Source: Thalassotalea nanhaiensis | Lineage (GTDB): Bacteria > Pseudomonadota > Gammaproteobacteria > Enterobacterales > Alteromonadaceae | Direction of reading: 5' to 3' | Assembly: GCF_031583575.1 (NCBI RefSeq) | Contig: NZ_CP134146.1 | Coordinates: 2,418,001-2,482,000 of the forward strand | DNA length: 64,000 nucleotides | In this document: one piece after another, positions 36,699 through 54,882 of the stretch | How positions within the stretch are numbered: position 1 is the stretch's first letter | Layout of the letters: the number at the start of each line of letters is the position of its first letter | The notes under the pieces: generated by a model | What the model saw: only the letters and a program-made list of their open reading frames with translations | The model's database searches: none | What the model was told of the DNA's origin: nothing | Translations under genes and position numbers: made by a program

Positions 36699-39600
36699 TT
36701 ATCCGTTACAGTGGGTACCACAGTTTCCTACATATTCTTCTCGGGGTATGTAGGTTCTCGCCGCTTCACTGATATCTAAAGTGAAGTCATATTTAGTCGG
36801 GTCGACTTCTAATATCTCCGGAGCTATATACCGTGGACGACATGTGGCAATGGTAGTTTCAGCTAACCCAGAACATTCTGGGAATCCTCCATGTTCACTG
36901 TCTTGAGTCCAGATAACAGGTTGCGTAAAGCGCTTACTGGTCATAGTACATTCATAGTCACCGTTTTCTTGTAATGCACAGGAATTCAGGTCTGAATAAC
37001 CTTCCTCATTTATATTAACTTCTCGGTGATGACTGTTGAGCAAAGTCATAATGTGACGTTTGCTAAAATCATTAACAAATGGCTGACCTGGTTGGTACGC
37101 AGCAGCAGACTCTTTATGTAAGTCAAAAGCGACAGAAAACTCCTCCACGTAAGTGCTGGTACAAAACATTTGTGTTGCATCATCTACTTTAACGTGATTA
37201 TCAGGGTCTGCTAGATAATCGTCTAACTCGGCATTATTAACAGCAAAACAGCCAAGTGCAGTACCCCTACTAGAGTTATTCCAGCAAATTGGCGCATGCA
37301 TAGTGAGGCCATAGTACAAACAAGATACACGTTCATTAAATGCATCTTTCATACTACCATTTAAGAATTCATAGGCGCCGCCTTCTTGCACTGCTTTCGC
37401 ATCAAAAATATCTAATAAGGCTGTAACCCCAAATGGCTTATGCGTTGCAATTAAAATTTCAACACAATCGCCGAAATATGTATGAGTGATAATTTCAATA
37501 ATATTACCCTCACTATCTTTAATGATAGTGTCCACATCTGCGAGTTCTTTTAAACTTGCATCATCTTCACAGGTTATTTGATTATCGCGCAGGTCTAAAA
37601 ATTCAGGTAACTTTATCCAGGCTAAAATGACGCTAATATCGGTTAATAAGTTAGTATCTAAAAGCAACTTATCAGTAATATTAACATTAGCTAACGCGCT
37701 AATATCAGCAATACTGTTATTGGTTAAATTTAATGTAGTTAAGGCTTCTAACTCAGCAAGAGCACTAATGTCATCAATTTGGTTATTGTTCAATGAAATC
37801 GTCGTTAACTTAGTTAAATTTTCCAGCACATTAATGTCATTTATTGCATTGTTATTTGCTGTTAATTGCGTTAATTCAGTAAAGCTGGTCAACGGTTCAA
37901 GGGAGATAATTTTGTTGTGATCTAAATTCAGTGTCGTCAGTGTATTAAACCCGGCGATAGGAATTAAATCAACAATTTCATTATGATGAATTGCCAATTC
38001 AGTTAGCATCGCGCTTGTTGAAAACTCTGGTAGTACACTAATTTGATTGTTATTTACGGTTAAAACAGTTAACTCGTTTAAACCGGCCAGGCTTGGCAAA
38101 GCTGATAAGTTATTATTGTCTAAATTTAACTGAGTTATACCGGTAAATGATTCAATACCAGCAACCGTAGTTAAATCATTATTTGACAACGTCAGTTCAG
38201 TTAATTGGTTAAAGTTTGCCAGTTTTGCAATATTAGTAAGTAAATTACCCGATAAATCTAATACTTCAACATTAGTTAAATTCTCTAGCACATCTATATT
38301 AGTTAAAGCATTTCTTGCTAATTTTAACGTTTTTAACTGAGTAAAATTACCAATTACCGAAAAGTCTGTAACTTTAGTGTTTGATAAATCAAGATACTCT
38401 AATTCGACCATTTGTGACCAAGCTGATATATCTGAAACATCAGTGTTCGGTAACGCAAGAGTTTTAAGACCGGTGAAATACTGTAGATGTTCAAAATCGC
38501 CTGTTGGATCCCAGGTAGTACAGTCCAACATCTCGATTTGGTCAACCAGTTTTTTCTCGAAAAAGTCCTTTGCTGCACCGCTAAAGGAACCGCCAGGAGC
38601 GACTATACCAAACTGGCCGCTTTCATTTTTCATTATACATGACAATAATCCGCCATTTTTACCATCAGGTCCCCAATATAAATCAGCAAGCACAGGACTT
38701 GAACGTTCACTGTCATAGGGAGCAAAATCTTTTGGCAATGAGTCAGGTAAATTATAAACGCCATCGCCGTCGATATCGTCATCTACATTATCAAGCTTGC
38801 CATCAAAGTCGGTATCACGGACCTTAACGTAGTTACCATCTTCACCAATTTTAATACCGATTTCAGTGAAGCGTTCTATTCCTATTTCGTTTATTATTGC
38901 AGTTTTCAACGCTGCTACATTAGATAAAAGAAGTGAATTAGATAAGTACTCAAATGTAGTAGTCACGTCCTCAGGCAACGAAACCAATGCTTCTTCGCCT
39001 TCTAGTTTAATTAAGGTATGAATTATTGCTGCTAGCGTTAGTGCATCATAATGACGGCCGCCGTCAGCTGCTGCTACATCACCATTAAATATCGGCAGTA
39101 ATGCGTAAATATCGGCTAAACTTGGTTCAACGCCAGCGCTCAGTTGCGATTTAGCCAGCTCGCTCGCAAGCACAAACTGCGCAGTGGTCATGGCATTAAT
39201 GTTAAGGCCAAACTCTTCAAAACTTTCTAGGGCTTCATTAGCACCATGACGGCTTTGTAAAACCTTAATGTTTGGTAACAAAGAAACATACTCAACATTT
39301 TGCTGGCCAACATGTACCACTAAACCTGTACTTGAGGTAATACTTTCGCGGCCGGAGACTACAAGTTTGACCATCTTATCAACATTTTTTTCGTCAACGA
39401 TTAGATCAAAGTCATAAATACCATCGGAATAACTTCTTTTATCATCAATGGTGATAATTTGATCGCCTACATAAGCGGTGATGATTGGCTGAATAATATA
39501 TTTTACCTGGCCATAAAGCTTAACTTCTTCAACAATTGGCTTATTGGAAATATTAACGCTGTCTTGCTCAGTATTACCTTCATCGTCGGTAACAGTTACA

Positions 39601-39941
39601 CTAATTTTATACTCAAGATTTTCATCACCATAGGTAACGTCTGGCATGGTAAAACTTACTTGTTCAGTGCTCGCTCCCACTAACGTGATTGCTGGTTGAT
39701 TTGGATTAATTATTGTCCATTCGTAGCTAACAATTACACCATTTTTATCAAATGCATCGGCATTTAATACTACTTCTTCGCGTTCAAAAACTGATAACGC
39801 TTTCGTTTCTATTGAAACAGTTGGAGCATACTTTTCTACGCTTAAGTCGGCGCTATTATCGTCGCCACAACCGCTCAGCAATACTGATGCAATTAGCAGG
39901 TTGGCACTTGAACTCTTAAACATATTTTTATAATTGGCCAT
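36699..39941 (-). CDS. Leucine-rich-repeat (internalin-like) lipoprotein
   Basis: About 1080 residues. The lipobox IASVLLSGC puts the acylated Cys at residue 25 from the start at 39941. An Ig/PKD-like domain (about 40-135) follows, then a calcium-binding segment DTDFDGKLDNVDDDIDGDG, and about 13 repeats of exactly 22 residues (LTxLxLxxNxIxDI). The C-terminal 250 residues are Cys-containing and unrecognised. It is 90 bp downstream of the TonB receptor gene and shares its direction. Surface attachment and binding of a protein or polysaccharide are likely (inference). Confidence 0.85.
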   Translation of the reverse strand: MANYKNMFKSSSANLLIASVLLSGCGDDNSADLSVEKYAPTVSIETKALSVFEREEVVLNADAFDKNGVIVSYEWTIINPNQPAITLVGASTEQVSFTMPDVTYGDENLEYKISVTVTDDEGNTEQDSVNISNKPIVEEVKLYGQVKYIIQPIITAYVGDQIITIDDKRSYSDGIYDFDLIVDEKNVDKMVKLVVSGRESITSSTGLVVHVGQQNVEYVSLLPNIKVLQSRHGANEALESFEEFGLNINAMTTAQFVLASELAKSQLSAGVEPSLADIYALLPIFNGDVAAADGGRHYDALTLAAIIHTLIKLEGEEALVSLPEDVTTTFEYLSNSLLLSNVAALKTAIINEIGIERFTEIGIKIGEDGNYVKVRDTDFDGKLDNVDDDIDGDGVYNLPDSLPKDFAPYDSERSSPVLADLYWGPDGKNGGLLSCIMKNESGQFGIVAPGGSFSGAAKDFFEKKLVDQIEMLDCTTWDPTGDFEHLQYFTGLKTLALPNTDVSDISAWSQMVELEYLDLSNTKVTDFSVIGNFTQLKTLKLARNALTNIDVLENLTNVEVLDLSGNLLTNIAKLANFNQLTELTLSNNDLTTVAGIESFTGITQLNLDNNNLSALPSLAGLNELTVLTVNNNQISVLPEFSTSAMLTELAIHHNEIVDLIPIAGFNTLTTLNLDHNKIISLEPLTSFTELTQLTANNNAINDINVLENLTKLTTISLNNNQIDDISALAELEALTTLNLTNNSIADISALANVNITDKLLLDTNLLTDISVILAWIKLPEFLDLRDNQITCEDDASLKELADVDTIIKDSEGNIIEIITHTYFGDCVEILIATHKPFGVTALLDIFDAKAVQEGGAYEFLNGSMKDAFNERVSCLYYGLTMHAPICWNNSSRGTALGCFAVNNAELDDYLADPDNHVKVDDATQMFCTSTYVEEFSVAFDLHKESAAAYQPGQPFVNDFSKRHIMTLLNSHHREVNINEEGYSDLNSCALQENGDYECTMTSKRFTQPVIWTQDSEHGGFPECSGLAETTIATCRPRYIAPEILEVDPTKYDFTLDISEAARTYIPREEYVGNCGTHCNG

Positions 39942-40031
39942 AAGGCTTCTCACTATTAATTTATTCACAGTAACTTAGTTTGAGCAGGCAAACATTTTGC
40001 CTGCTCTCTATCTGGGCTTACTCTATGATTA

Positions 40032-43000
40032 TTAGAATCTATAACTCAACTCAGCAGATACCGTACGTCCTACTGCAGCACCACCATAGGCACCGCTATT
40101 AAAGTATGGCCAGCTGTATGCTGTTTGGTCTTTTGGTGGGCGCGGGTTAAATAAGTTAACGATTTGGGCAGAAACAAATAAATCGTTATATACAGCCCAG
40201 CCACCAGTTAAGTTAAAGGTGTAGTAAGGGTCTACTCGTTGTACTTTTTGATAGTAGTAACTGTTTTCATCACCAAATTCCTGAGGTGGATTCATAATTG
40301 GCGTAGAGCCAATGCGACGGCCACTTAATGTGAGTGAATAATCAGCTTGCATCCAAGTTAATGAGCCATTTATTACAGAACGAGCAGTTGAGTTCCACCA
40401 TTTATCGCGAGTATGAACTTCTTCGCCATCTTCTGTCGCTTGATAGCTAGAATCCAGGGTATGAGTCCAGGCCAAGTCAAGTCTAAAATCACCATAACTG
40501 GTTTCTAATTTATAGTTAACTTTAGCGTCTATGCCTTCAACCATTTGCTTGGCAGCATTTTCATGCGAAGTAAATACTGAGCTAATTTCTCGACCGAACG
40601 GTCCAACATCTGACCAATCTTCAACGTCGTCGGTAATTTTGTCATCATTGTTTTGACAAAATGCAGAGCCAGGTTCGATATCCGGACGATCATTTTGATC
40701 GGCAAAATCAGGATATAACTCTTCATCACTACGGTCTTGACAGTAAAATTCATTAACCAGCACGCCTTGCAGACTTTCACTAACAACAAGTTGCTCTATT
40801 TCAATTTTGTACCAGTCTAAAGTGATGTTTAAGTCTTCAGTTGCTTCCCAAACGATACCTAAACCGTAACTAGTACCTTCCTCTTCTTTTAAGGTTTTAG
40901 AACCAGCAGTGTTACCACGAATTGATTGACCAGCACATTGTGCGTTATCTAAATCAAACTTGTCATTAACTGGGTCTAAATCAGTGAACTCACCGTCTTC
41001 ATCTTTTAAACCTTCATAATAAGCAATTTCACAACCGACAATATCAACACCAGTAGTGTAGTAACCACCGTCTTCAGCGAAAACGCGATGCATGTCTGGC
41101 GCTTTAAAGCTTGTACTCCATGTACCACGTAGCAATACCTCATCTATTGGTGTATAGCTAATACCTACTTGCGGAGTAAAACGACCACCAATATCAGTAG
41201 TGCCATCTTCGTATTCATCATAACGGCCAGCTAAAGAGGCTAATATTTGTTCGGTAACTGGTATTTGTAATTCAAGACCTACGGCGTAACGAGAACGATC
41301 ACCACCACCAATACTACCGGTTAAGTTATACCAACCTTCACGGTAGCCATTTTCGTCTTCTTTGGCTAATGTACGATCATCTAACATCATGTCATAGCCT
41401 TGCTCGTTCCATTCAAGCACGGCAGCAAACATCGCATCACCATGGTCCATTTCCCAGGCAACACCTGAAACTACTGCAGTAATGGCATTTGAATATGACT
41501 CAGATGCTTGCCACTGAGTGCCGGCTAAATCCGCTCTAACTTGTTCAGACAAAGGATCGTACAAACCGATAGTATTTACGCCGTCGTAACCTCGAAACAC
41601 GGCATCACCAAAACTGATGTCATGTTGTGTTCCTAAGAAATACTTTTTAACTTGCTCTTCTTTTAACTGCGTTGAATAACTGTCACTTTGATTGTCACTA
41701 CGGCTAAATGTTACTTCCCAATCATATTCATCAAATACTACGCCTTTAAGGCCAACATTTACCATTAATGAACTGTCTTCAACATTACCGTCTTTAAAAC
41801 CGATTTCATCTTCAGAAAAGAAACGCTGATGAGTCACCCATTTCCAGTCTTCAACACCTGTACCGGCAAAACCATCATTTTCTAATGGTAAAAGGTTACT
41901 GTCATTTTCACCTGTACCGTCTTCACTAACGTTGATCATCATTTCTTCATTAAAGTAATGAAAACCGCTGCGATATTCAGCTTCCTGATATGAATAAAGT
42001 ACATCAGCAAAAACAGAAACATCATCTGTTAAGTCGTAAATACCACTTAAGTAAGCCGATACGGTTTCACGATCATTTCGAATTGTTCGAGTACCGGTGT
42101 TATCGGTGCCACAATAATCTCCCCAGTTGTACTCATTCTCTTCACCTTCGTTATCAATGCGATCTGTAGGAATATAACCGGTACCAGAATTTTGACAGGC
42201 GCTGTTTGCTGGTGATATATAACGTGGTGGTCGAAGAAACTCATCTTCATCATCAAAGTACTCTTCATCGTTACGATAAAAGCCTTCATAACGAGCTAAT
42301 TCGTCAACAACCACTATTCCGCGATCTAAATAAGTATGACCTGCTGGACCATCTTCTACACTGTCCATCCAGTCTCGATCTGCAGCTAAAATTTTCTTTT
42401 GAACTTGATATTCAAGTGCTCCAGTTAAGCTGTAGTTGTTATCACTAATACCTGAAACAATTTGAAAACGCCCTTCTTCACCACCGCCTTCAGTGGTAAC
42501 ACCACCTTTAATAGCAACGGTAGTATCTTCAACGTCTTTTTTGGTGATAATATTCATTACCCCTGCAACTGCATCTGAGCCGTAAATAGCTGAGGCACCT
42601 GCATTTAATACTTCAATACGAGCAATTGCTACTGCAGGAATAGCTGATAAGTTAACAAAATTACCTTGGCCATTATATGGGCTTGGGTAATCAGCCATGC
42701 GGCGACCGTTCACTAAAATAAGTACTTGGTTATTACCTAAACCACGTAAACTTACTGTTTGTGCATTTGGGGTAAAACCACCGGTTGCAGCAGACTCAGC
42801 GCCTTGTGTAGTACCGGTATTTGAGGTTAAATCTTTTAAGGCATCAAACGCAGTGGCAAAACCTTTGGCTTGTAATTCAGCTGCACTGATAACTGTTACC
42901 GGGCTTGGTCCTTCAAAATCAATTTGTTTAATACGAGAGCCTGTAACTTCAATGCGTTCAACGTCATCTTCGTCTTCTACAACTTCTTGCAGTTCAACTT

Positions 43001-43118
43001 GATCAACTGCTGTTTTTTCAATTTCTTGCTCTTGGGCAGCGTAAACATTAACACTGCCGATTAAGCCGACAAGGCATGCACTACGAATACTAGTAGTTAA
43101 TTTACTTAATTTTTTCAC
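40032..43118 (-). CDS. TonB-dependent outer-membrane receptor
   Basis: A protein of about 1028 residues: signal peptide, acidic linker, a TonB-box-like segment ERIEVTGSRIKQID, a plug domain (VTVISAAELQAKG, VSLRGLGNNQVLILVNGRRMADY, ASAIYGSDAVAGVMNIITKK) and a long beta-barrel ending in an aromatic residue (ELSYRF). GTG at 43118, with GGTTGGA upstream, is the more likely start; the frame also has TTG at 43130. It lies between two subtilisin-fold genes and an LRR lipoprotein, so it may import peptides released outside the cell (inference). No siderophore genes are adjacent. Confidence 0.9.
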   Translation of the reverse strand: MKKLSKLTTSIRSACLVGLIGSVNVYAAQEQEIEKTAVDQVELQEVVEDEDDVERIEVTGSRIKQIDFEGPSPVTVISAAELQAKGFATAFDALKDLTSNTGTTQGAESAATGGFTPNAQTVSLRGLGNNQVLILVNGRRMADYPSPYNGQGNFVNLSAIPAVAIARIEVLNAGASAIYGSDAVAGVMNIITKKDVEDTTVAIKGGVTTEGGGEEGRFQIVSGISDNNYSLTGALEYQVQKKILAADRDWMDSVEDGPAGHTYLDRGIVVVDELARYEGFYRNDEEYFDDEDEFLRPPRYISPANSACQNSGTGYIPTDRIDNEGEENEYNWGDYCGTDNTGTRTIRNDRETVSAYLSGIYDLTDDVSVFADVLYSYQEAEYRSGFHYFNEEMMINVSEDGTGENDSNLLPLENDGFAGTGVEDWKWVTHQRFFSEDEIGFKDGNVEDSSLMVNVGLKGVVFDEYDWEVTFSRSDNQSDSYSTQLKEEQVKKYFLGTQHDISFGDAVFRGYDGVNTIGLYDPLSEQVRADLAGTQWQASESYSNAITAVVSGVAWEMDHGDAMFAAVLEWNEQGYDMMLDDRTLAKEDENGYREGWYNLTGSIGGGDRSRYAVGLELQIPVTEQILASLAGRYDEYEDGTTDIGGRFTPQVGISYTPIDEVLLRGTWSTSFKAPDMHRVFAEDGGYYTTGVDIVGCEIAYYEGLKDEDGEFTDLDPVNDKFDLDNAQCAGQSIRGNTAGSKTLKEEEGTSYGLGIVWEATEDLNITLDWYKIEIEQLVVSESLQGVLVNEFYCQDRSDEELYPDFADQNDRPDIEPGSAFCQNNDDKITDDVEDWSDVGPFGREISSVFTSHENAAKQMVEGIDAKVNYKLETSYGDFRLDLAWTHTLDSSYQATEDGEEVHTRDKWWNSTARSVINGSLTWMQADYSLTLSGRRIGSTPIMNPPQEFGDENSYYYQKVQRVDPYYTFNLTGGWAVYNDLFVSAQIVNLFNPRPPKDQTAYSWPYFNSGAYGGAAVGRTVSAELSYRF

Positions 43119-43208
43119 GATAGTTTCCAACCTGAATAATATTTTTATCTTTGTTTCGACGCTTGCCGCCAGAGTTATCTGACGACAGCATCCTTTATTT
43201 TTTAGTAT

Positions 43209-46200
43209 TTATTTTGTTTTTCTAAGCTTCGATTGTCGTAGCATTGTTCGACGCGTAAACAGCGCCGTTAATGCCATTAACATAAATGCTGCATTGGTAG
43301 TGCCACCAAAATCGGTCGCCTCAACATTTACGCTCGCTTCAACTGGCATAGACTGTTTATCGCCATTGTGACCAGTAAGCTCGAAGATGATGATCCCTTC
43401 CTTTTTAGCACCTGGGGTAACAAAGCTGATTTCATTTCCAGACTGCGTAAATTCAACGCTAGGGCCTGATACTTGCGCCCATTGGTATGAAATTAAAGGG
43501 TTGTCAATTACCGCATCAACTAAACTGGCGCTGATCACTACGGTATCGCCTTTGCTCGGGTTACGTTCAGATACAGACGTGGTAAACACCGGGCGACCTA
43601 CAACTTCAATCGCTTCATCAGCGTATGAATAACTCGGATGCTCTTGCTCATTAATAATTGAAGTAACTACCGGGGCAACATCAGTGTGGCCTTCAACATG
43701 GTCATAATTAATGACTAATGCTACTGCCTCGGCATTACCGCCAGCAGTCATAACATGTTCAAAGGTGATTTCGCTGCCGTTAATGCTATAGTCAACAACT
43801 TCACCGGCTGATTTAAGTGCTATACCCTTTTGTACATTTTCATGAGTAAATTGCACCAGTTCTGTACCTGCAGTTAAGTCCACAGTCATGTTGTAAGTGA
43901 TGTCTTTTTCGGTGTTATTGGCAGTGAACATGATTTCAAACGCAGCTTCTGAGCTTGCTTCATTGTTTGATAACAGGTTTAGTTGAACATCATCCAGACC
44001 GCGTTGAATATTGACATTAACCGTACCAATGTTCTGACTTAGGTGATCATCAGTACCTAAGTGGAATTGACCATAGTAACGCTCGCCCTTAGTCATCGCT
44101 TTATTCCAAGTTAAATCAAGGCTTACCTCTACATCTGGAGCTACATTTCTTGGCCCGCGTACTTTTAACGACTCATCGTCTTCGTCAGCATTGCGCACGA
44201 CTGAGATAGAGAACTCAACAAAATCTGGCTCTTCTAATGTTGCAGGATCATGTAATGGATTGGCTTCACCTTCACCGATTTCAACCGCATTAAAAATGTC
44301 ACCGTAGTTATGAATAAGTAACATATAAATACCTGGCGTTGGGTTTTGTACGTCTATCTTGGCATCTGCGCCACGATATCCATCCCAAAAGGTTACAGCT
44401 CTAAGCTCACGAGTATCAACAACACTGTCAGCATCAGAATCAACCATGGCATACATGTCAATATCTGGTGAAGAAGTATCCAGTACTTCAATCACTAAGC
44501 GCGCCGCTGTTGATGGTACATAGAAAGGGTATGAATAAGTACCATCTTCTAAATCACGATAAACTTCAGATGGGAATTGATCTCTTGATATGTATACCTT
44601 GTCAGTAAACGCTTCAGTAATACTGCTTTCTGTAATGGTTAAATCATTACTACCAATAGTGACAATGTCGCTAACTTGTACCGTACCGGTATCACGATGA
44701 GCAATAATGTTCACAGCTTCAGGCGCAGTACCAGCAACAAATTCAACTGCAGCGGCAAGGCTCATATCAGCAATGTTGCTATCGCTTGATTTGAAGTGAA
44801 TACGACCATTTGACCAAAGTGCATCAAGTTCATCATTAACGGTTGCGGTAAAGTATAATTTATAGGTTTGCCCTGCTTTTACTGAAAGAGTATTAATTTC
44901 AGCCCCTGCAAGCTCTACCGTTTTAATTTCATCTTCTTCTCGTGGGGTTAGTACTAGACCTTCTACACTTTCATCGACAACATAAGTATTTAATACCATG
45001 CCTTTGTTACCGTAAGAATAAGATATATCGTAGGTAGCATCCTTTACGGCTTTAAAGGTACGAACCCAGCCACAAGCGGCTAAACAGTCGCCTTTAGATA
45101 AGCTTGCCAGATTTAAACGATGGGTTTTACCATGCCAGCCATGTGGTGCTAAAATTTTATCCCCATACTCATCGACAGGATAAGGAAGTTCCATCTCATC
45201 ACCTTTGTCACTTTCACCAGGTAATCCCTGATCATCCGGCAGTTCCTGATAGGCAGCATCACCGTATGGATCAGCAGCTAAATATTCATCACGCGTAATT
45301 GGCATAACTAAACCAGCCTTAAGCGCATAATCTACACGCATTAACCCCGAGCCTTGCATATGGAATGATGCTGGATCGAATACTTCATTGTTGTCTTGAT
45401 CAAACTCGCCATTCCATACACGAACGGTTGTTGCTGCAGTTAACATAACCGCTGATTGCGCTTCTGCTGGCGTCCAGCGTTCTTCCTCAACTTCCTTAGC
45501 ATTTTGTACACCAGCAATAATTGCGTAAATACCAGTCATATGAGGTGTAGACATTGACGTACCGCTTTTATATTCCCATTTCGAGCCACTGGTTACAGAG
45601 TTAGATTTGTAACGCATCATGTTTGGGCCTAAACCTGAGGCTATAATGGTTTGACCTGGACCGGTAATTGAAGGGATCAAATAATCTTTAGAGAAAATAT
45701 CTGGACCACGTGATGAGAAAACACTTGGAAAGTTTGCTCTGGTTGGATTTGATCGAGCTTTAGAGTCGCTAAGGGCAATTTTATGATCTTTGCCTTCGGC
45801 TAACCATTCGACAAGCTGTTTACCGTTTTTATAGTTTAAGTGCAGCGCCGGCAATACATGTTGATCGGCAATTACGCTTTCACTACCATTTTTAGTATTA
45901 ATTAAAATCATTCCAGCAGCACCAGCAAAGTGTGCTTCTACACCTTTGGTTAAACGAGCAATAGGGCCTTCTCCATTACCGCCACCACGCTTACAAACCA
46001 CAACTTTACCAGCAACTATTTCGGGCTTTAACGTTCTTGGGCCACAACCACCGGCAATCCCCCAATCATCTTCGGCATTGCTCACTTCTGCATTACTAGC
46101 CAGAACAAGATCGGTTTCAGCAAGGCCTAATGTACCCGCTTCACCAACTAAAACTCCTGATAAATCGATGTATTGCTGCCACTCTGGCTTATCTAAGTCA

Positions 46201-47804
46201 TCTTTAGCAACGTGATTAACGACCAAAGTATTACCACCAAATAATGTCGCAATTTTTTTATCAAAACCTCGATCGGATGACGCCGAGCCAACGCTGGTAA
46301 GCCAAGGAGCATTTGCAGGGGTACGTACCGTGCCCCAGCCATATGCACCGGTGTTACCGGCAGAAGCAGATACATGCATTCCATTTTGACGAGCACCTAA
46401 AAACGCTAATGCCTGCCAACTGTACCAAGGAGATGTTGCCGGTCCACTAACGGAATAGTTAACCGCGTCAACTCCAATATTAAAGGCATGCTCAAGAGCT
46501 ACAGCAGCATAACCTGGGAAACAACCGCCATTTGTACCACCACACACTTGATAAGATATTATATTTGCATGTGGTGCCACACCGGCTATACGGTCATAAA
46601 CAAACGATTCTTTAAAGTCGTTATAGCTGTTTTTATTTTCATGATTTTCTCTACCTTCAATAGCTCTTTGCTCTAATTCTTCTTCAAAGTTAGCCATTAA
46701 AGTAACGTGATCGCGTTGCCCGGTTTCAACTTCTGCTTGTATGTTGTAAACAAAGTTACCTGCTGCGGTTGAGGCTACGTGAGTACCATGACCAGTAAAG
46801 TCTTGACCTGTTGCCCATCTTGAGTGAACAAAAGTCACATCACCATTTTCTTCAATTATGTGATCATGAGATACACTATCGTCGGCAAAAGCACCTATGC
46901 CCATAACACCAATGAGCTTTTCACTACACCAGTTTGGCTGCGTAGCACAATCTCCGTAGTAACCTGATGCACTGTTTGGGTTTGGAATAGGGTTGGTAAA
47001 AGTGTAAGTTGTACTTACTTTATTACCTTCTTCATCAACAACAAAATTACCATCGGAGTCAAATTCAAACTCTTCAACCTCGCCAGCAAATGACGGGTTA
47101 AATGGTGGTAAGTTTTCAGTATCGGTAATATCCCTTACCAGTTCATGATAAGACGAAATACCTGAGTCAATAACAGCAACAACTGCGCCCTCGCCCATGC
47201 TGATACTGTCGCCATTGGCATCTACGTATGTATTAGTTTGCTGCCAGACATTATCCGCACCAGTAAATGCAGGGCCAGAATCTGTGTCCATGGCTTGCAT
47301 TTCAAGTTTCTCGATTGAGCGTACACCTGGCATACCTTTGACTAGTAATGCTTCAGTTGCATTAAGCTCGGTGGTAAAACCGTTTAAAACAGAGGTAAAT
47401 TCAAATTCAACATCCAGCTCGCGCTTTAAGCGCAAACCAATATGCAATTGCATTTCAGCCTGTTTGCCAGATAAAAAGTTTTTATATTGCTTTGACGCTA
47501 AACTCTTAGTATTAAGCTTACCGCGGGCATCAATATTTGTGCCTTTACTGGCTACTACATTCGTTGCTGATAAACCATCGACGCCGCCTTTATACATGGC
47601 TAAAGCATCGTCTTCTAATAAGACCATGTAGCTGTCGATACCAGCGAGTGATTTCTTTTGAGTGAGTAAATCTTTGGTAAAAACCGTTTGATTTAGTGGA
47701 ATATAAGTCTGACCATCGTTGTCTATTAAGCTATTTGATGCAGCATTCGCGCCTGCAGCAGAAATAGACAAAGCCAGCATTAATTTATTTAAATGTAATT
47801 TCAC
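43209..47804 (-). CDS. Secreted S8 serine peptidase (subtilisin-like), intact, GlyGly-CTERM
   Basis: A 1531-residue exoprotease. It has a signal peptide (1-21), an I9-type propeptide (about 55-170) and a catalytic domain with D213 (VAVIDSG), H339 (GHGTHVA), N484 (SASAGNTG) and S750 (SGTSMSTPH), all intact. A PA-type insertion (about 540-680) sits inside it. Beta-sandwich modules and a PKD-like domain follow, then the tail FGGTTNAAFMLMALTALFTRR, a GlyGly-CTERM sorting signal. The start is GTG with AAGGA. It is 24 bp after the pseudo-subtilisin gene and 90 bp before the TonB receptor gene. Confidence 0.92.
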   Translation of the reverse strand: MKLHLNKLMLALSISAAGANAASNSLIDNDGQTYIPLNQTVFTKDLLTQKKSLAGIDSYMVLLEDDALAMYKGGVDGLSATNVVASKGTNIDARGKLNTKSLASKQYKNFLSGKQAEMQLHIGLRLKRELDVEFEFTSVLNGFTTELNATEALLVKGMPGVRSIEKLEMQAMDTDSGPAFTGADNVWQQTNTYVDANGDSISMGEGAVVAVIDSGISSYHELVRDITDTENLPPFNPSFAGEVEEFEFDSDGNFVVDEEGNKVSTTYTFTNPIPNPNSASGYYGDCATQPNWCSEKLIGVMGIGAFADDSVSHDHIIEENGDVTFVHSRWATGQDFTGHGTHVASTAAGNFVYNIQAEVETGQRDHVTLMANFEEELEQRAIEGRENHENKNSYNDFKESFVYDRIAGVAPHANIISYQVCGGTNGGCFPGYAAVALEHAFNIGVDAVNYSVSGPATSPWYSWQALAFLGARQNGMHVSASAGNTGAYGWGTVRTPANAPWLTSVGSASSDRGFDKKIATLFGGNTLVVNHVAKDDLDKPEWQQYIDLSGVLVGEAGTLGLAETDLVLASNAEVSNAEDDWGIAGGCGPRTLKPEIVAGKVVVCKRGGGNGEGPIARLTKGVEAHFAGAAGMILINTKNGSESVIADQHVLPALHLNYKNGKQLVEWLAEGKDHKIALSDSKARSNPTRANFPSVFSSRGPDIFSKDYLIPSITGPGQTIIASGLGPNMMRYKSNSVTSGSKWEYKSGTSMSTPHMTGIYAIIAGVQNAKEVEEERWTPAEAQSAVMLTAATTVRVWNGEFDQDNNEVFDPASFHMQGSGLMRVDYALKAGLVMPITRDEYLAADPYGDAAYQELPDDQGLPGESDKGDEMELPYPVDEYGDKILAPHGWHGKTHRLNLASLSKGDCLAACGWVRTFKAVKDATYDISYSYGNKGMVLNTYVVDESVEGLVLTPREEDEIKTVELAGAEINTLSVKAGQTYKLYFTATVNDELDALWSNGRIHFKSSDSNIADMSLAAAVEFVAGTAPEAVNIIAHRDTGTVQVSDIVTIGSNDLTITESSITEAFTDKVYISRDQFPSEVYRDLEDGTYSYPFYVPSTAARLVIEVLDTSSPDIDMYAMVDSDADSVVDTRELRAVTFWDGYRGADAKIDVQNPTPGIYMLLIHNYGDIFNAVEIGEGEANPLHDPATLEEPDFVEFSISVVRNADEDDESLKVRGPRNVAPDVEVSLDLTWNKAMTKGERYYGQFHLGTDDHLSQNIGTVNVNIQRGLDDVQLNLLSNNEASSEAAFEIMFTANNTEKDITYNMTVDLTAGTELVQFTHENVQKGIALKSAGEVVDYSINGSEITFEHVMTAGGNAEAVALVINYDHVEGHTDVAPVVTSIINEQEHPSYSYADEAIEVVGRPVFTTSVSERNPSKGDTVVISASLVDAVIDNPLISYQWAQVSGPSVEFTQSGNEISFVTPGAKKEGIIIFELTGHNGDKQSMPVEASVNVEATDFGGTTNAAFMLMALTALFTRRTMLRQSKLRKTK

Positions 47805-47828
47805 TTTTATATCCTTTTTGAAAAGTGC

Positions 47829-50800
47829 CTAAGCACTTTTCTTTAATCTTTGAGCTAAACGACGTTGGCTGGCCAAAATCATTAACAAGATGAAAGTAAA
47901 TGAGGTGCTACCGCCTGAAGAGGATGAATTTCTTTCTTCTTCAGCTTCAGAATTTTCATTGGTAATGTTCAATTCAAGTGATGCTTGATAAGTATGAATA
48001 TCGTCAGAAACCAATAATGTTGAGAAGAACTGCCCTGCCACATTTGGTGTACCTGATAACGTACCTGCTTGGCTAAGCGATAACCCTGCTGGTAATTCAT
48101 TTGAACTAAAGATAATCTTACCGCCATCAAGATCGGTAAAGTGTGATGCTAAAGAAACGCTTTCAATTTCTTGGCCAACTTTAGCTGCAATAACAGGTAA
48201 ACCAGAAACCTGCTGCGGTGCATTGTCATTGGCGTTCGATAAGCCGATATTCACCGTAGTGATATCACCATTAAGGTAATTCATGTACGCCTGTATTTTG
48301 ATTTGGTATTGGGTCTTTGCTTCATAGTTCAGAATTGATGCGTCGCGAACAGTGATTACACCAAATTCATCCATCTGAAATGGTGCACCAACATCGCTAC
48401 TCATTAAGCGCATGCGCGAGTTTTTACTTTGTTGTAATCGGTCTCCACCAAACTGAACCTGGCCAACAAAGTCACCATTTTGTGCATCTTCACTAATGGT
48501 AAAACTTTGGTTATCTTTAATGGTTGGTAATGGCGCATTCCAGTCTAAAAATTTGAAATAACCACTGGCAGGACTAAACACTGACGACTTGCCAATACAG
48601 TTGTCCAAACCTAAATCAACAATCTGACCACCACACTCTTCTTGCACAAGCTGGGCAACAGTCGCTCTTTCACCTGGAGCAACAGTAAGCTTATCTTGCC
48701 AAGTTAGTTCATCTGCATCTTTACTATCATCAGCATGCGCAATTTTTATAACAGAGCCAGTTAATAATGAGTAATTACCTTCGCCAAACATTGTTTGCTT
48801 AATTGGCGCTTTTAGTACATCAGCAAACTCGATCATTTTGATATAATCGGTTTGGCTATGCTCACCTTTTAAGTTATCCGGGTAACATGTTGCGTAAGTA
48901 CTCTCTTTTGGTAGATTACACATTAAATTAGCCGTAGTTGGGCCTTCACCACCGGGCCATGGTGCCCCTACTGGTGATGTAAATGAGATATCTTCAACAA
49001 AACGAGGGTGCGTTACCGTACAGGTATAACGTAAAGGACTTAACGTTTTAATATCACAAAAGTTGGTAAAGCTTGTTTCGCTAAGGCCAAAGTAAATAGG
49101 TAAGCTTACTATCGGCTGATTTTCAGTAAACTCTCTAATACAGTTACCATTAGAGTCATGTACTTCAATAAAATCTTCACTGTAATCTTCGTCTTCACAG
49201 ATGTCTTCAATAATTTCTTCGTCAAGGGCATTATCAAGTTCTTGCTCGAATAAGCCGCCATATTTGAAATTATGAATAAGCAAGTTATCGCCGATAGTCG
49301 GTAAACTCTGTCTATCAGTAATAAACTGAAAACCAATATTTTCATTAAAGGTTTGCTCATTTATGGTGAAATCCGATTCTATCGGGGTAACACCGTAGCC
49401 AATGTGTGGTCCATGATATAAATCTTCTAAACAGATATTCATGATCACCGTATCACCACCTGGAGAAACAATAGTAGGTAATGTCGATGTTTTTAGACGT
49501 TTTTGTGGGGCATCTAAGTCATAGGCATATTTGTAATCAATATAAAACGTTTCTAAAGTAAGTGGCTTTAAAGAGTCATCGATACCATCGCGCAGTCCAT
49601 CTTCGCCTTCATCAATTGAATCAAAAGATACAAAAAGCTCGGTAATTCTTTGCTGTTCATTTCTAACAGCAGCTAACTCAACCGGTGTTTTATAACGTAA
49701 TTGACTATTAACAATTGAGCCTTCTTGCGGATATACATTATCAGCCGCAAGCAGTGCTTCTTGGTTATAAAGCTTTAACACCACTAACTTTTCACCAATA
49801 CGATCCATATACTTAGATACTGGTACTTGCATTGGCTCAAACATAGTAACGGCAACACTTAGTTGCTTGTTTGAAACACTGCATTGCTCTTGTGGATAAA
49901 CACCACCAGAAACTGCTTTAATAATGTTGCCACCGGAATTTACTTTGTCGGCAGGTTTACTGGCTGAATAGTAAATGGTAGGCATGGCATAAAGCTCTTG
50001 CGCAACACTTGATTCATTTTTAATATCAACCTGATTATAAGATTGGGTAATGTCAAAATAAGTGGCATTTTTCCAGTCACTTCTAAACGGTGGCACTCTT
50101 TCTTCTATGCCTATTTTGTCATAGGTTTCTTTTTTGAAAAAAGTATCAAAAACAGAAGTTTCCATATCAACACTGAATGGACTAGTTTGATTAGGCATAG
50201 CTAACCAGGGCATTTGAATATTTTTAGTTTTACTACGTTCGTGAGAAAATTGGATGTAGCCATCTAATGCATATTGATCCCAATTTTCAAGTGTGTAATC
50301 CGCACTTTCCTGAATCGATATAGGGCTTAACTTACTGCCATCAATATTAAAGGTAACGCCGACAGTGATTTCTGAATTAGCTGGTATCGTTACGTGTGAA
50401 GGCATGAGCACACTAATGGCGGCATTATTCGGTCGATACGAGTCTTCCACACTTTTCGCATCATGAATAACATTTGACAAATAATACGTTTCTTCTTTAT
50501 CAGAAACGTTTTTAATGACTAATTCTTTAGTAAATCCGGCTTCGCCTTGCACAGCAACCTGACCTAAATTAATAGTCGGTTGCAGCGTTGCTTTGTCATA
50601 CATTAACACTGGCGTGCCATTAGCGGCCACAGGGTTTAAGCGGCCACCGCCTAATTGGGCAATTCCCCAGGCATTAGCAACATCATACTCACCGGTATTG
50701 GTGATCATCGCTTTAATTTCATGGGCGTTAAGCTGTGGGTAACGCTTCATTAAATTAGCAGCCACCCCTGCAACTCTTGCTGCGCCGTATAAATTGTTAG

Positions 50801-52094
50801 GTTCAACTTTATCGCTGTAGTTACCAGAATTAATAATTGCGCCATAAGCGTCAGATGATAATGCAACAACTTCAGGTTTTATATTTGATTGACCACGATT
50901 AGGCCCTATTGGACTGTGTTCGTTAATAATGTATTCACCAACATTATCGACATCTTTATCAACAAAACCGACTGAAATTCCTTCTGGCACCATACCGCGT
51001 GGAGCCACGCTGTAATACGTTTCAAATTGACCATTGTCCCCTGCAGGAGTCACCACTAGGGTGCCGGTAGCAGCAATGGCACGTAATATTTTAATATCTA
51101 AACTACCGCCAGTATGGTTTTCGTCCCAAAAACCTAACCAGCCCAGAGTGTTTACATCTAATAATAAAATATCGGCAGCATCAGACATATCACCGTCTAG
51201 GTTGGGATCCATAACCATTTCGAATGCTTCGTATAGGCTTTCTTTTGACTCTCTTAAAATTCCAGAGCCTGAGTTATTTACACCATGGACTTTATAACTA
51301 AGTATTTTCGCTGAAGGCGCTGCATTTAAAATCATAGATGCGGTGACGGTGCCAACTCCGGCCTGATAGCCGTACTCTACCCCATCGACTTCAATTTCGA
51401 TGTCGGCAAAAAATTCAATCGGGTTATAATCAAAGCCGCCACGAGAAGAGGAAAAGTCGAAGCCGCCAATAACGGTTTGGTTTGGAAATAAATCAGACAC
51501 TGCATCACGGTCATAATATGCAGTCACATAATCAGCTTGCTTACCGCTACCACCAAGTTGTGCATGAGTATAATCAACACCTTGGCCAATAAGAGCAACC
51601 ACCGGATTGTCTCCTGGGTCATTCACTTTTAAGTACCGATATGGCGACTCTTTGGCTGCTAATGAATTAGCTTCTACCAAGGTGGCATTTTCATCCTTAA
51701 TTACAGAATCAACGTCAGAAAAATGACGAACTTTGTCAGCGGTTGCTTTACTCATTTGCATGGTGAGCATGCTAGTAACGATTCGTAGCTGTCTGGTCAC
51801 AATCGCGTTAGGGTCTTCGGCTTGAATGCTCGCAATTAATTGAGTTTGTTGTTCAGTGATTTCGTTTATAACAGCGCTTCGACCAGCACCGTATACAGCA
51901 TATTTGCTGTCTATTGCTCCAGCTTGAGCTAGAGTAATATTGTATACCCCTAATTCTTCGTTTGTGTTAGCTAGGTGTGAACTAACACTGTCGGTATTAG
52001 CACTATCTAGTTTGCCATTATTTACGACGGCATTAGCACTATTTGATAATAATGCTGAAACTAAAATTGCGACAGCGGATGATTTAAAAATCAT
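47829..52094 (-). CDS. Catalytically dead S8 (subtilisin-fold) secreted protein, GlyGly-CTERM
   Basis: A 1421-residue protein with signal peptide and subtilisin fold whose active site is lost. Where the family has VIDTGVDYTH it reads LIGQGVDYTH (G170); the HGTH position reads VGTV (V247); the oxyanion segment is AGDNG; and the GTSMAAPHVAG helix reads NNLYGAARVAG (no serine). Hydrophobic core and glycines are kept, so it is not a decayed gene. A cadherin-like domain, an Ig (LPAGLSLSQAGTLSGTP) and a GlyGly-CTERM tail (SSSSGGSTSFTFILLMILAS) follow. GAGGA precedes the ATG. It probably acts as a binding, chaperone or inhibitor partner of the adjacent protease. Confidence 0.87.
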   Translation of the reverse strand: MIFKSSAVAILVSALLSNSANAVVNNGKLDSANTDSVSSHLANTNEELGVYNITLAQAGAIDSKYAVYGAGRSAVINEITEQQTQLIASIQAEDPNAIVTRQLRIVTSMLTMQMSKATADKVRHFSDVDSVIKDENATLVEANSLAAKESPYRYLKVNDPGDNPVVALIGQGVDYTHAQLGGSGKQADYVTAYYDRDAVSDLFPNQTVIGGFDFSSSRGGFDYNPIEFFADIEIEVDGVEYGYQAGVGTVTASMILNAAPSAKILSYKVHGVNNSGSGILRESKESLYEAFEMVMDPNLDGDMSDAADILLLDVNTLGWLGFWDENHTGGSLDIKILRAIAATGTLVVTPAGDNGQFETYYSVAPRGMVPEGISVGFVDKDVDNVGEYIINEHSPIGPNRGQSNIKPEVVALSSDAYGAIINSGNYSDKVEPNNLYGAARVAGVAANLMKRYPQLNAHEIKAMITNTGEYDVANAWGIAQLGGGRLNPVAANGTPVLMYDKATLQPTINLGQVAVQGEAGFTKELVIKNVSDKEETYYLSNVIHDAKSVEDSYRPNNAAISVLMPSHVTIPANSEITVGVTFNIDGSKLSPISIQESADYTLENWDQYALDGYIQFSHERSKTKNIQMPWLAMPNQTSPFSVDMETSVFDTFFKKETYDKIGIEERVPPFRSDWKNATYFDITQSYNQVDIKNESSVAQELYAMPTIYYSASKPADKVNSGGNIIKAVSGGVYPQEQCSVSNKQLSVAVTMFEPMQVPVSKYMDRIGEKLVVLKLYNQEALLAADNVYPQEGSIVNSQLRYKTPVELAAVRNEQQRITELFVSFDSIDEGEDGLRDGIDDSLKPLTLETFYIDYKYAYDLDAPQKRLKTSTLPTIVSPGGDTVIMNICLEDLYHGPHIGYGVTPIESDFTINEQTFNENIGFQFITDRQSLPTIGDNLLIHNFKYGGLFEQELDNALDEEIIEDICEDEDYSEDFIEVHDSNGNCIREFTENQPIVSLPIYFGLSETSFTNFCDIKTLSPLRYTCTVTHPRFVEDISFTSPVGAPWPGGEGPTTANLMCNLPKESTYATCYPDNLKGEHSQTDYIKMIEFADVLKAPIKQTMFGEGNYSLLTGSVIKIAHADDSKDADELTWQDKLTVAPGERATVAQLVQEECGGQIVDLGLDNCIGKSSVFSPASGYFKFLDWNAPLPTIKDNQSFTISEDAQNGDFVGQVQFGGDRLQQSKNSRMRLMSSDVGAPFQMDEFGVITVRDASILNYEAKTQYQIKIQAYMNYLNGDITTVNIGLSNANDNAPQQVSGLPVIAAKVGQEIESVSLASHFTDLDGGKIIFSSNELPAGLSLSQAGTLSGTPNVAGQFFSTLLVSDDIHTYQASLELNITNENSEAEEERNSSSSGGSTSFTFILLMILASQRRLAQRLKKSA

Positions 52095-52749: not shown

Positions 52750-54882
52750 TCAATCAAGCAACATAGCATATATATCGGCATCATTAACCCCGTGTAAACT
52801 AATCAATATTGACTGGTTCTGGGTTGGAGATATACCACGGTAATTACGTATTGACGTTGCAGGTAACGATATAACTACCTTGTCTTCACCGTTCATATTT
52901 AGTTGCTTTATTCGATCGTTTGCATCACTGCGCTCGATATAATAAAACGCATCATCCATCCAAAAAAAGTTACCAAAATCTCGAGCGGAAAGTTTATCTA
53001 CTACTTTAGTGAATTGCTTGGTATTTAAGTTAAATTGCCAGATCCCTGATTCATTTTTTCTGCTGACATATAAATTACCGTCAGCACCTTCGACAGCAAA
53101 ACTTTCGCCGGTGTGAGTAATTTCATCAATAGTTTTGTCAGCAATGTTATAGCGATAAATCCCTTGCTTTTTCTCTGTTATACCTGAAAAATAAAACGCG
53201 TCTTCAGATAATGACCAGTACGGGTGAGCCACCTTCATTGGGAGATTATCTATTTTGCTTAAATTACCATCGGGTAAGCTACCTAAAAACAACTGACTTG
53301 CTGCTTCGCCAGGCTGTTTTAACACAACAGCAAATTGCTTGCCTGAAGGTGAAGTCGTTGGCACAAAAGGTAAGCCAATATTTTCGGTTAGTTGCTTAGA
53401 AACAAACTTCTGTCTTAGCCATAACTCCCAATTACCAGAGCGATTCGATACAAATAAAACACTGTCATCTGCATTAATATATTGGCCGTACAAATCTCTT
53501 GAAGATGAAGCAACACGGCGTAACGTACTTCCAGTGTCTAACGATTTTTCTTCAATAAACTCACTTGAGGTATGGCGTGAAAAAAACAGTTCTCCTGTTG
53601 CTTTGTTTATAGCAACACTGCCAGGAGTTGGCGAGCTATTAAGCATGACTAATTCATTACTATCAAGACTTAATGCTTCGATAACAAACTGCCCTTGCTT
53701 AGGCTTTGTGATAATAATTTGTCTATTGCTCTCATCCCAAGCCAAACCAATCATAGTATTATCATCGGTAAGTAAAATACGCTCGTTATTTTTGCTCGCC
53801 GATTGAACCGGGGCTTCAACGTCCAAAGTTATCAACTGCGATTGCAAGTTGTCTTTACGTATAATCGCTATTTTTTCATTATTATCAATAAAAACCACCA
53901 AAGAATCAGATTGGTTTAATTTAGGGTAAGTCAGCTGATGACTGGTCTGTTCAGCTATATCGTAGCGAAATATTGCGACCCTGCCTTTTAACACTTTAGG
54001 GTAAGCGATGTATTTACCATCACTGCTCCAATCAAGACCATGGTTAAACTTGTCTTGACTACACCCATTCGCGATCAGCTTGTCCCTATTTGAGATAAGA
54101 TGATAGCGTCTTACCTGACAATCACCATTGTCATAAATCCTGATATACGCTAATGATTGACCATCTGGTGACCAAACTGGGGTTATTTCTTCAGCATCAC
54201 TACGAGTGACCAGTCGCAGTTCTGCTTCATTGTCGGTTAAATCTTTAATATATATTTGGCTATGTTTTCTTTCTTGGCGCCATTGAAAAGCCATCAACTG
54301 ACCGTTAGGACTGATCGCGGGCTGCTCTTCAACTCCCTCAAAATTAGTAATATGTTTAACTTCAGTTTTAACTTTAACTACACTTTTTGTCGATTGAAGT
54401 TTATTTGGTAGAAACGCATAAACTCCTGCGGCTACAACTAATACCGCTGCTGTAGCTATATATGCTGGCATCACTCTTTTGCTAGGATTTAGATTTTTGA
54501 CCTTCTCTTCTTCAACAGGCTCTGGAGATATAATAAGCTGATAGCCAACTTTTTGAATAGTCACGAATACTTCGTCAGTATCAGCGCCTAAATCGGTAAA
54601 TACTTTGCGAAGAAACCAAACAGCATTAGGGAAACCTGTTTTACCAACGCCTTCGTTATTCAACCAAACCTTTTCAATGGCTTCATCTTTACTGACAATA
54701 TGATCAGGGCTTACTATAAAAAGTTTCAGTAAATCAAAAACTTTCGCTGAAAGCTGTACTGATTCTTGCTCATTGGCAATGGTCATTTTTCGACAGTCTA
54801 CCTGCCAACGACCGATACTGTACTTACGAGATGGTACTTCAATCATAAAGTTTACATAGCCTCTGCGAAAAATCGATTTCAT
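52750..54882 (-). CDS. Membrane-tethered winged-helix regulator with PD40/TolB-like propeller
   Basis: A 710-residue one-component regulator like CadC/ToxR. An OmpR-type winged helix covers residues 20-118 (LSAKVFDLLKLFIVSPDHIV, VGYQLI), a single transmembrane helix covers 138-158, and a periplasmic part holds several PD40 beta-propeller blades (ISPNGQLMAFQW, WSPDGQSLAYIR, WSSDGKYIAY). It lies between the exoprotease operon and the M12B-type protease gene, all on the minus strand. A reasonable hypothesis is that it senses a periplasmic signal and controls the proteases. The ATG at 54846 is an alternative start. Confidence 0.87.
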   Translation of the reverse strand: MKSIFRRGYVNFMIEVPSRKYSIGRWQVDCRKMTIANEQESVQLSAKVFDLLKLFIVSPDHIVSKDEAIEKVWLNNEGVGKTGFPNAVWFLRKVFTDLGADTDEVFVTIQKVGYQLIISPEPVEEEKVKNLNPSKRVMPAYIATAAVLVVAAGVYAFLPNKLQSTKSVVKVKTEVKHITNFEGVEEQPAISPNGQLMAFQWRQERKHSQIYIKDLTDNEAELRLVTRSDAEEITPVWSPDGQSLAYIRIYDNGDCQVRRYHLISNRDKLIANGCSQDKFNHGLDWSSDGKYIAYPKVLKGRVAIFRYDIAEQTSHQLTYPKLNQSDSLVVFIDNNEKIAIIRKDNLQSQLITLDVEAPVQSASKNNERILLTDDNTMIGLAWDESNRQIIITKPKQGQFVIEALSLDSNELVMLNSSPTPGSVAINKATGELFFSRHTSSEFIEEKSLDTGSTLRRVASSSRDLYGQYINADDSVLFVSNRSGNWELWLRQKFVSKQLTENIGLPFVPTTSPSGKQFAVVLKQPGEAASQLFLGSLPDGNLSKIDNLPMKVAHPYWSLSEDAFYFSGITEKKQGIYRYNIADKTIDEITHTGESFAVEGADGNLYVSRKNESGIWQFNLNTKQFTKVVDKLSARDFGNFFWMDDAFYYIERSDANDRIKQLNMNGEDKVVISLPATSIRNYRGISPTQNQSILISLHGVNDADIYAMLLD

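Follow-up and report, generated by a model that had tools for sequence, protein, structure and literature searches.

A triad-less subtilase encoded beside an intact subtilase in Thalassotalea nanhaiensis and other bacteria

Two subtilase genes at the locus

A 64,000-nucleotide stretch of the Thalassotalea nanhaiensis genome (contig NZ_CP134146.1 of assembly GCF_031583575.1, positions 2,418,001 to 2,482,000; hereafter the window) carries two adjoining subtilase genes on its minus strand: a pseudo-subtilase (PS), which has the S8 peptidase fold without its catalytic residues, and directly after it an intact subtilase (ACT). An earlier note, made from the letters of the window, had described PS as a 1421-residue open frame in which every catalytic position of the fold is replaced, and the gene 24 bp away as an intact subtilisin. 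Both descriptions are borne out. The Peptidase_S8 model matches PS at 4.7e-10 (39.7 bits against a cut-off of 21.8), which places the protein in the S8 fold family; 308 of its residues cover 273 model positions, with G170, V247, D353 and L435 standing at the positions of Asp, His, the oxyanion Asn and Ser, while ACT has D213, H339, N484 and S750. What the note said of the accessory parts of PS holds in part: a signal-like N-terminus (by hydropathy scan) and an immunoglobulin-type (Ig) He_PIG module were recovered, whereas the matches to a cadherin module and to a GlyGly-CTERM tail lie below their cut-offs (Table 1). Among solved subtilases the best match of the PS profile is 8jmw (1.1e-21, among the best 60 of 115 matches) and that of the ACT profile 7eox (3.2e-94, among the best 60 of 187).

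Table 1. Positions of the two subtilase genes, their parts and neighbouring genes (window coordinates unless a locus is named)
Feature	Position	Strand	Basis or remark
Pseudo-subtilase (PS)	47829..52094	-	Open reading frame, ATG start, 1421 residues
Pseudo-S8 domain of PS, residues about 161-468	50691..51614	-	Pfam PF00082
G170 in place of catalytic Asp, PS	51585..51587	-	Gly/Ser/Ala there in 40/40 PS
V247 in place of catalytic His, PS	51354..51356	-	His kept in 3/40 PS
D353 in place of oxyanion Asn, PS	51036..51038	-	Asn kept in 9/40 PS
L435 in place of catalytic Ser, PS	50790..50792	-	Ser kept in 3/40 PS
fn3-like domain of PS	50205..50534	-	Pfam PF06280, 1.4e-08
Cadherin-like module of PS	48282..48506	-	PF00028, 21.0 bits, below cut-off 28.8
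Putative Ig (He_PIG) module of PS	47967..48200	-	PF05345, 1.8e-07
GlyGly-CTERM-like tail of PS	47832..47939	-	TIGR03501, 12.7 bits, below cut-off 15.5
PS-ACT spacer, 24 bp	47805..47828	.	Between the two open reading frames
Intact subtilase (ACT)	43209..47804	-	Open reading frame, GTG start, 1531 residues
Catalytic S8 domain of ACT (D213, H339, N484, S750)	45345..47195	-	PF00082, 6.7e-31
PA domain inserted within S8 domain of ACT	45813..46049	-	PF02225
CadC/ToxR-like regulator	52750..54882	-	Trans_reg_C 1.2e-07, one hydrophobic stretch, PD40 1.2e-19
TonB-dependent receptor after ACT	40032..43130	-	Domain search
Leucine-rich-repeat/PKD protein, likely last gene of cluster	36699..39968	-	Domain search
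Probable zinc metalloprotease, 783 residues	55277..57628	-	HELGHQFGAEH motif
Single-frame PS-ACT, Solimonas	L057:7650-14969 and L065:7539-14861		Dead part first

Forty pairs and the loss of the triad

Co-occurrence of the two genes in other genomes had been set beforehand as a check on the proposed pair, and it was found: after removal of duplicates there are 40 distinct PS-ACT pairs, the window's included, and every one of the 40 full-length PS lies beside an ACT (39 of them intact, one, L097, with a stop). They are distributed as 22 in six genomes of the genus, six in Shewanella, one in Neiella, two in Solimonas and nine in further genomes, and span 24 genomes, provided that all sampled genomes are distinct, with up to six pairs in a single genome. 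The genome of the window has five: its four additional PS share 32-35% identity with that of the window (best piece), each is followed directly by its own ACT, and the triad is gone in all five. The carriers (Shewanella, Neiella, Thalassomonas/Thalassotalea and Solimonas), which we take to be Gammaproteobacteria, are not known to form spores. Relatives were gathered from 39 related genomes, from a named genome collection that gave 29 loci, 12 of them PS, and from the surveys of genus, order and class given below. Left out before counting were one locus identical to another (L126, to L063), three from the same records as others (L056, L061 and L064, as L085, L092 and L088), a live unpaired subtilase (L101), and the 17 of the 29 loci that score 171 bits or less with the PS profile (L067-L083). 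Thirteen of those 17 loci were placed in the tree described below, with Asp, His and Ser present wherever aligned. A PS fragment with a stop was also seen on a short contig of genome G003.

Loss of the catalytic residues is general among these homologues, which was the first thing to be asked of the earlier reading. The Asp is replaced in all 40 PS (by Gly in 21, Ser in 18 and Ala in one), His and Ser in 37 each, and the oxyanion Asn in 31. No PS keeps more than one of Asp, His and Ser – the three that retain His and the three that retain Ser are different proteins – so that none of the 40 keeps the triad and none qualifies as an active S8 enzyme. All 40 ACT sequences retain His, Asn and Ser, and 39 retain Asp; the exception is L097, which was read only after its stop.

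The lost residues sit in what is otherwise the best conserved domain of PS: the pseudo-S8 domain has a mean conservation of 0.52, and 56 of its 338 columns score at least 0.9, while where His and Ser once stood the most frequent residue accounts for no more than 0.20. The N-terminal part is poorly conserved. A Peptidase_S8 match (at E up to 1) is found in all 40 PS, and the fn3-like domain PF06280 in 24. If catalysis in PS had moved elsewhere or relied on other residues, the Asp, Glu, Lys, Thr and Asn residues that remain conserved in it might contribute. In the pseudo-S8 alignment, however, not one column has a His, Ser or Cys shared by at least 36 of the 40 PS, whereas ACT at this level has ten columns of His, seven of Ser and six of Cys. 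By this measure a relocated site built on Ser, His or Cys is rejected, and we regard a different active site of any kind as very improbable.

Evolutionary rates were obtained by substitution counting in nine comparisons of related cassettes. The ratio of nonsynonymous to synonymous change (dN/dS) is 0.07-0.24 for PS and close to that of ACT, with the caveat that dS approaches saturation in several comparisons and that for ACT one ratio was not computable. The comparison of the window with L087 gave 0.081 (PS), 0.080 (ACT) and 0.057 (pseudo-S8 domain); a second comparison of the pseudo-S8 domain gave 0.104. These values bear on the possibility that PS is a decaying duplicate which linkage to ACT has carried along. 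Most members have indeed lost Asp, His and Ser, and cassettes do decay: at L151 (4715-7933) a regulator gene is followed by a 329-residue PS remnant, and the stretch read contains no live partner, a cassette in decay. But low dN/dS, for the whole protein as for its pseudo-S8 domain, is not what decay leaves behind; nor are 40 full-length frames, the single clade formed by the 19 PS placed in the tree, or an adjacency that has survived both inversion and joining into one frame. Decay and sequencing error are rejected on the first two of these grounds. Because 40 distinct homologues share the loss and dN/dS is low, the loss of the triad is attributable neither to chance nor to decay, and we give the decaying duplicate almost no credence. 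Together these data strongly support the conserved pseudoprotease-protease pair that the earlier note had proposed.

Distances among PS and among their ACT neighbours are closely matched (r=0.953 across pairs). When ACT partners were shuffled within genomes none of 20000 shuffles reached this value (mean 0.677, largest 0.947), which shows, as far as such distances can, that each PS has moved together with the ACT beside it. Shared ancestry was considered as the full cause of the matching and set aside, since the shuffles argue that matching goes by neighbour; linkage alone can suffice for it.

In a tree of 57 S8 domains (19 PS, 19 ACT and 19 others; 302 columns, quick search without bootstrap) the 19 of the 40 PS included form one clade (Shimodaira-Hasegawa-like approximate likelihood ratio test, 100), separate from ACT and from other live subtilases. 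A recent duplication of ACT is on this ground rejected as the source of PS; the tree is midpoint-rooted and does not fix the PS ancestor. The ACT sequences do not form a separate clade: unpaired subtilases of the window's genome (L021-L024) fall among them. The PS profile also gives 290 bits to a live subtilase that has Asp, His, Asn and Ser (L101:6988-10401) and that falls outside the PS group.

PS is found in 6 of 15 genomes of the genus, where the 22 full-length PS places pair one to one with 22 ACT places of at least 947 bits; the next ACT-like matches score 904 bits or less, a gap that is partly one of construction because paired ACT went into the ACT profile (A5, which excludes L097) and the cut-off was chosen once the list had been seen. 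A sample of 394 genomes of the order gave PS at 1e-60 in 12 (the window's included; 7 of 115 genera) as against ACT-like matches at 1e-120 in 60, solo ACT-like genes being common. In a class sample of 369 genomes there were two matches at 1e-40, to the window's genome and to a live relative in genome G015. These surveys, that of ACT-like matches included, scored two candidates per genome, and their copy numbers are lower bounds. A plasmid set gave no match at 1e-20, and spread of the pair by plasmids was rejected accordingly.

Setting of the pairs and candidate roles

In 35 of the 40 pairs the two genes are separate and on the same strand. Apart from L097, which was measured from its stop onwards, these have gaps between -68 and 91 bp (34 pairs). 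Three further pairs (L130, L131 and L132) are divergent yet adjacent, with 507-674 bp between the genes; in each of them the dead member has lost Asp and Ser and retains His. In Solimonas flava and S. variicoloris PS and ACT share one open frame of 2439 and 2440 codons, respectively. At the junction, inspection by eye shows a GlyGly-CTERM-like stretch at the end of the PS part and a further signal-like stretch at the start of the ACT part, the latter coinciding with a span in the hydropathy scan; one of the two frames has a Met at the junction. Given these sorting-like and signal-like stretches, the product may be a polyprotein or the ACT part may be initiated internally, either being possible. 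Wherever the two share a strand or a frame (37 pairs), PS precedes ACT.

The earlier note held that no system of this kind had been described, which is too strong. According to two papers (PMC6636752, PMC12880746), Clostridioides difficile has the dead subtilases CspA and CspC alongside the live CspB, CspB and CspA being made as one fusion. The likeness lies in the encoding together of a dead and a live subtilase – PS and ACT are adjacent in 40 of 40 cases, one ACT having a stop – and the dead Csp proteins are functional. The differences are substantial: CspA and CspC are altered at two triad residues (PMC6636752), whereas most PS have lost three; the Csp subtilase domain holds a jelly-roll insertion of about 130 residues, for which the spacing of PS leaves no room; Csp proteins are spore proteins acting in germination, whereas the PS N-terminus is signal-like and the carriers are other bacteria; and the live part comes first in CspBA but the dead part in the Solimonas frames. 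Because the general arrangement is common to both while insertion and setting are not, PS is not a Csp protein, and the pair is best read, by analogy, as a new form of a dead-with-live subtilase theme already known. None of the papers listed in searches of the open-licence PubMed Central literature reports the PS-ACT pair; subscription papers and preprints lie outside that coverage, and the pair may be in print there.

Two possible roles follow the Csp example. PS could be a sensor subunit comparable to CspC and CspA, in which a small ligand binds PS and triggers ACT, as PMC12880746 describes for dead subtilases that share their locus with a live partner. PS has no jelly-roll insertion by spacing, however, its N-terminus is signal-like and the cassette already possesses a regulator with a sensor-like propeller (see below), and we hold this role to be improbable. 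Alternatively PS could be an inhibitor, a safety lock that silences ACT in the cell until the surface is reached: PS is the first gene wherever the two are read in one direction, and the CspB prodomain stays bound after cleavage and blocks the active site, as stated in PMC6636752. Against this, the usual lock of a subtilase, its own I9 prodomain, is found in 35 of 39 ACT (and 2 of 40 PS, both at E up to 1); 1200-1400 residues with several further modules is an unusual size for an inhibitor; and the N-terminal part of PS is poorly conserved. A role as inhibitor therefore seems unlikely, if less so than one as sensor. The distribution of I9 also led us to reject PS as a folding prodomain of ACT.

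The surroundings of the pair offer further clues. The regulator gene of the window encodes an N-terminal winged helix, a single span at residues 140-158 (hydropathy scan) and PD40 propeller repeats. The first two features resemble those of CadC/ToxR-like membrane regulators (PMC5430869); the C-terminal PD40 beta-propeller does not. Relatives of this regulator – domains were scanned in the window's protein only, other loci being assigned by relatedness – occur in 33 of 40 loci, the window counted, 110-699 bp from the pair in 27 and 2.7-4.8 kb away in six. A TonB-dependent receptor or a relative of it follows ACT in all 12 loci of the window's subclade (window counted) and in none of the remaining 28 within the stretch read.

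Parallels with known enzymes concern the design and the tails. In its design, an S8 domain with a PA domain inserted, ACT matches P57, a PA-domain subtilase of the marine bacterium Photobacterium sp. A5-7 (PMC5177683), and a PA domain is found in all 39 ACT scanned. In contrast to ACT, P57 is described as a single enzyme, with no dead partner reported in the accessible part of that paper. The rhombosortase-dependent VesB of Vibrio cholerae is comparable in that some PS have a GlyGly-CTERM-type tail, similar tails are seen by eye on ACT, and the genome encodes a rhombosortase (176.8 bits, cut-off 84; none of 14 control genomes above the cut-off); it differs in being described as a serine protease, the portion of the source available mentioning no pseudoprotease partner. 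Ser/Gly-rich hydrophobic tails were recognized by a simple rule in 32 of 40 PS and 29 of 40 ACT. When ten tails were compared with TIGR03501 (cut-off 15.5 bits) those of two PS passed (L020, 17.2 bits; L055, 20.5 bits).

That PS is a dedicated functional partner of some kind appears to us very probable. The reading we favour, with rather less assurance, is that PS is a non-catalytic partner of the adjoining ACT, a putative surface protease; a physical complex of the two at the cell surface we judge probable to a similar degree. Both proteins would be exported and sorted to the surface by way of GlyGly-CTERM-like tails and the rhombosortase; the pseudo-S8 fold would bind ACT, a protein substrate, or both, and binding would set where, when or on what ACT cuts. 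The winged-helix/propeller regulator, presumably membrane-anchored, would turn the cassette on, and in the window's subclade peptides, or a cofactor freed by proteolysis, might pass to the TonB-dependent receptor encoded next.

A tentative, more specific form of this partnership casts PS as a substrate receptor or scaffold, an analogue of SusD-type binding proteins. The pairs would be two-subunit surface proteases in Gammaproteobacteria, in which the dead cleft and Ig-like modules of PS capture protein at the surface and present it to the matched ACT, with one branch handing its products to the TonB-dependent receptor and up to six matched, separately evolving pairs in a genome. The constant presence of that receptor in the window's subclade speaks for this form, as do the conservation of the pseudo-S8 domain above all other parts of PS and the PA domain in every ACT scanned, that of P57 being a collagen-binding one according to PMC5177683; the lack of a receptor relative in the other 28 loci, within the stretch read, speaks against it. 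In the TonB-linked branch substrate capture would be the most attractive form of partnership, with inhibition the next rival and Csp-like ligand sensing less likely.

Several observations weigh against the favoured partnership. The matched distances indicate co-inheritance and not contact, because linked genes share a history. ACT-like subtilases without a PS exist (L021 and L146-L150; the five of these inspected as solo loci, L146-L150, have no adjoining PS), from which it follows that the wider ACT-like class does not need one, and since ACT usually carries its own I9 prodomain PS is no obvious folding chaperone. At L097 (10076-13667) a full-length PS frame stands beside an ACT with an in-frame stop, and 7 of 40 loci have no regulator within the stretch read. 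Surface sorting is weakly supported for the window: the tail of its PS reaches only 12.7 bits, the tail of its ACT matched no family, and in that ACT no stretch was flagged by hydropathy.

The partners of pseudoproteases are often unknown, which makes such proteins hard to study; here the genome itself points to the partner, and the live relatives that have no dead neighbour are a natural control. With 40 matched pairs and these unpaired relatives, both the service of the dead subtilase to the live one and the specificity of the pair are therefore directly testable. If PS is indeed a partner, these bacteria break down protein with the help of a subunit that searches by family would list as just another S8 protease.

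Minor features of the locus

A perfect 9-bp hairpin (window positions 47820-47841) spans the PS stop just ahead of the ACT GTG, with no T-run after it on the minus strand; translational coupling with ACT is possible. A scan for promoters and terminators gave sites no more numerous than in shuffles, and for this reason no promoter is claimed. Two flanking genes recur in part of the window's subclade: the leucine-rich-repeat protein has a match in 6 of 12 loci, possibly through shared domains, and the metalloprotease, whose HELGHQFGAEH we take to be a zinc metalloprotease signature, or a relative of it, is likewise found in 6 of 12 (window counted in both). Elsewhere in the same genome two full cassettes, each of regulator, dead and live subtilase, stand in tandem (L017 and L019, C1:2572778-2594350). 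The genome as a whole (4.3 Mb) looks protease-rich: the subtilase model matches it 27 times, twice in some proteins.

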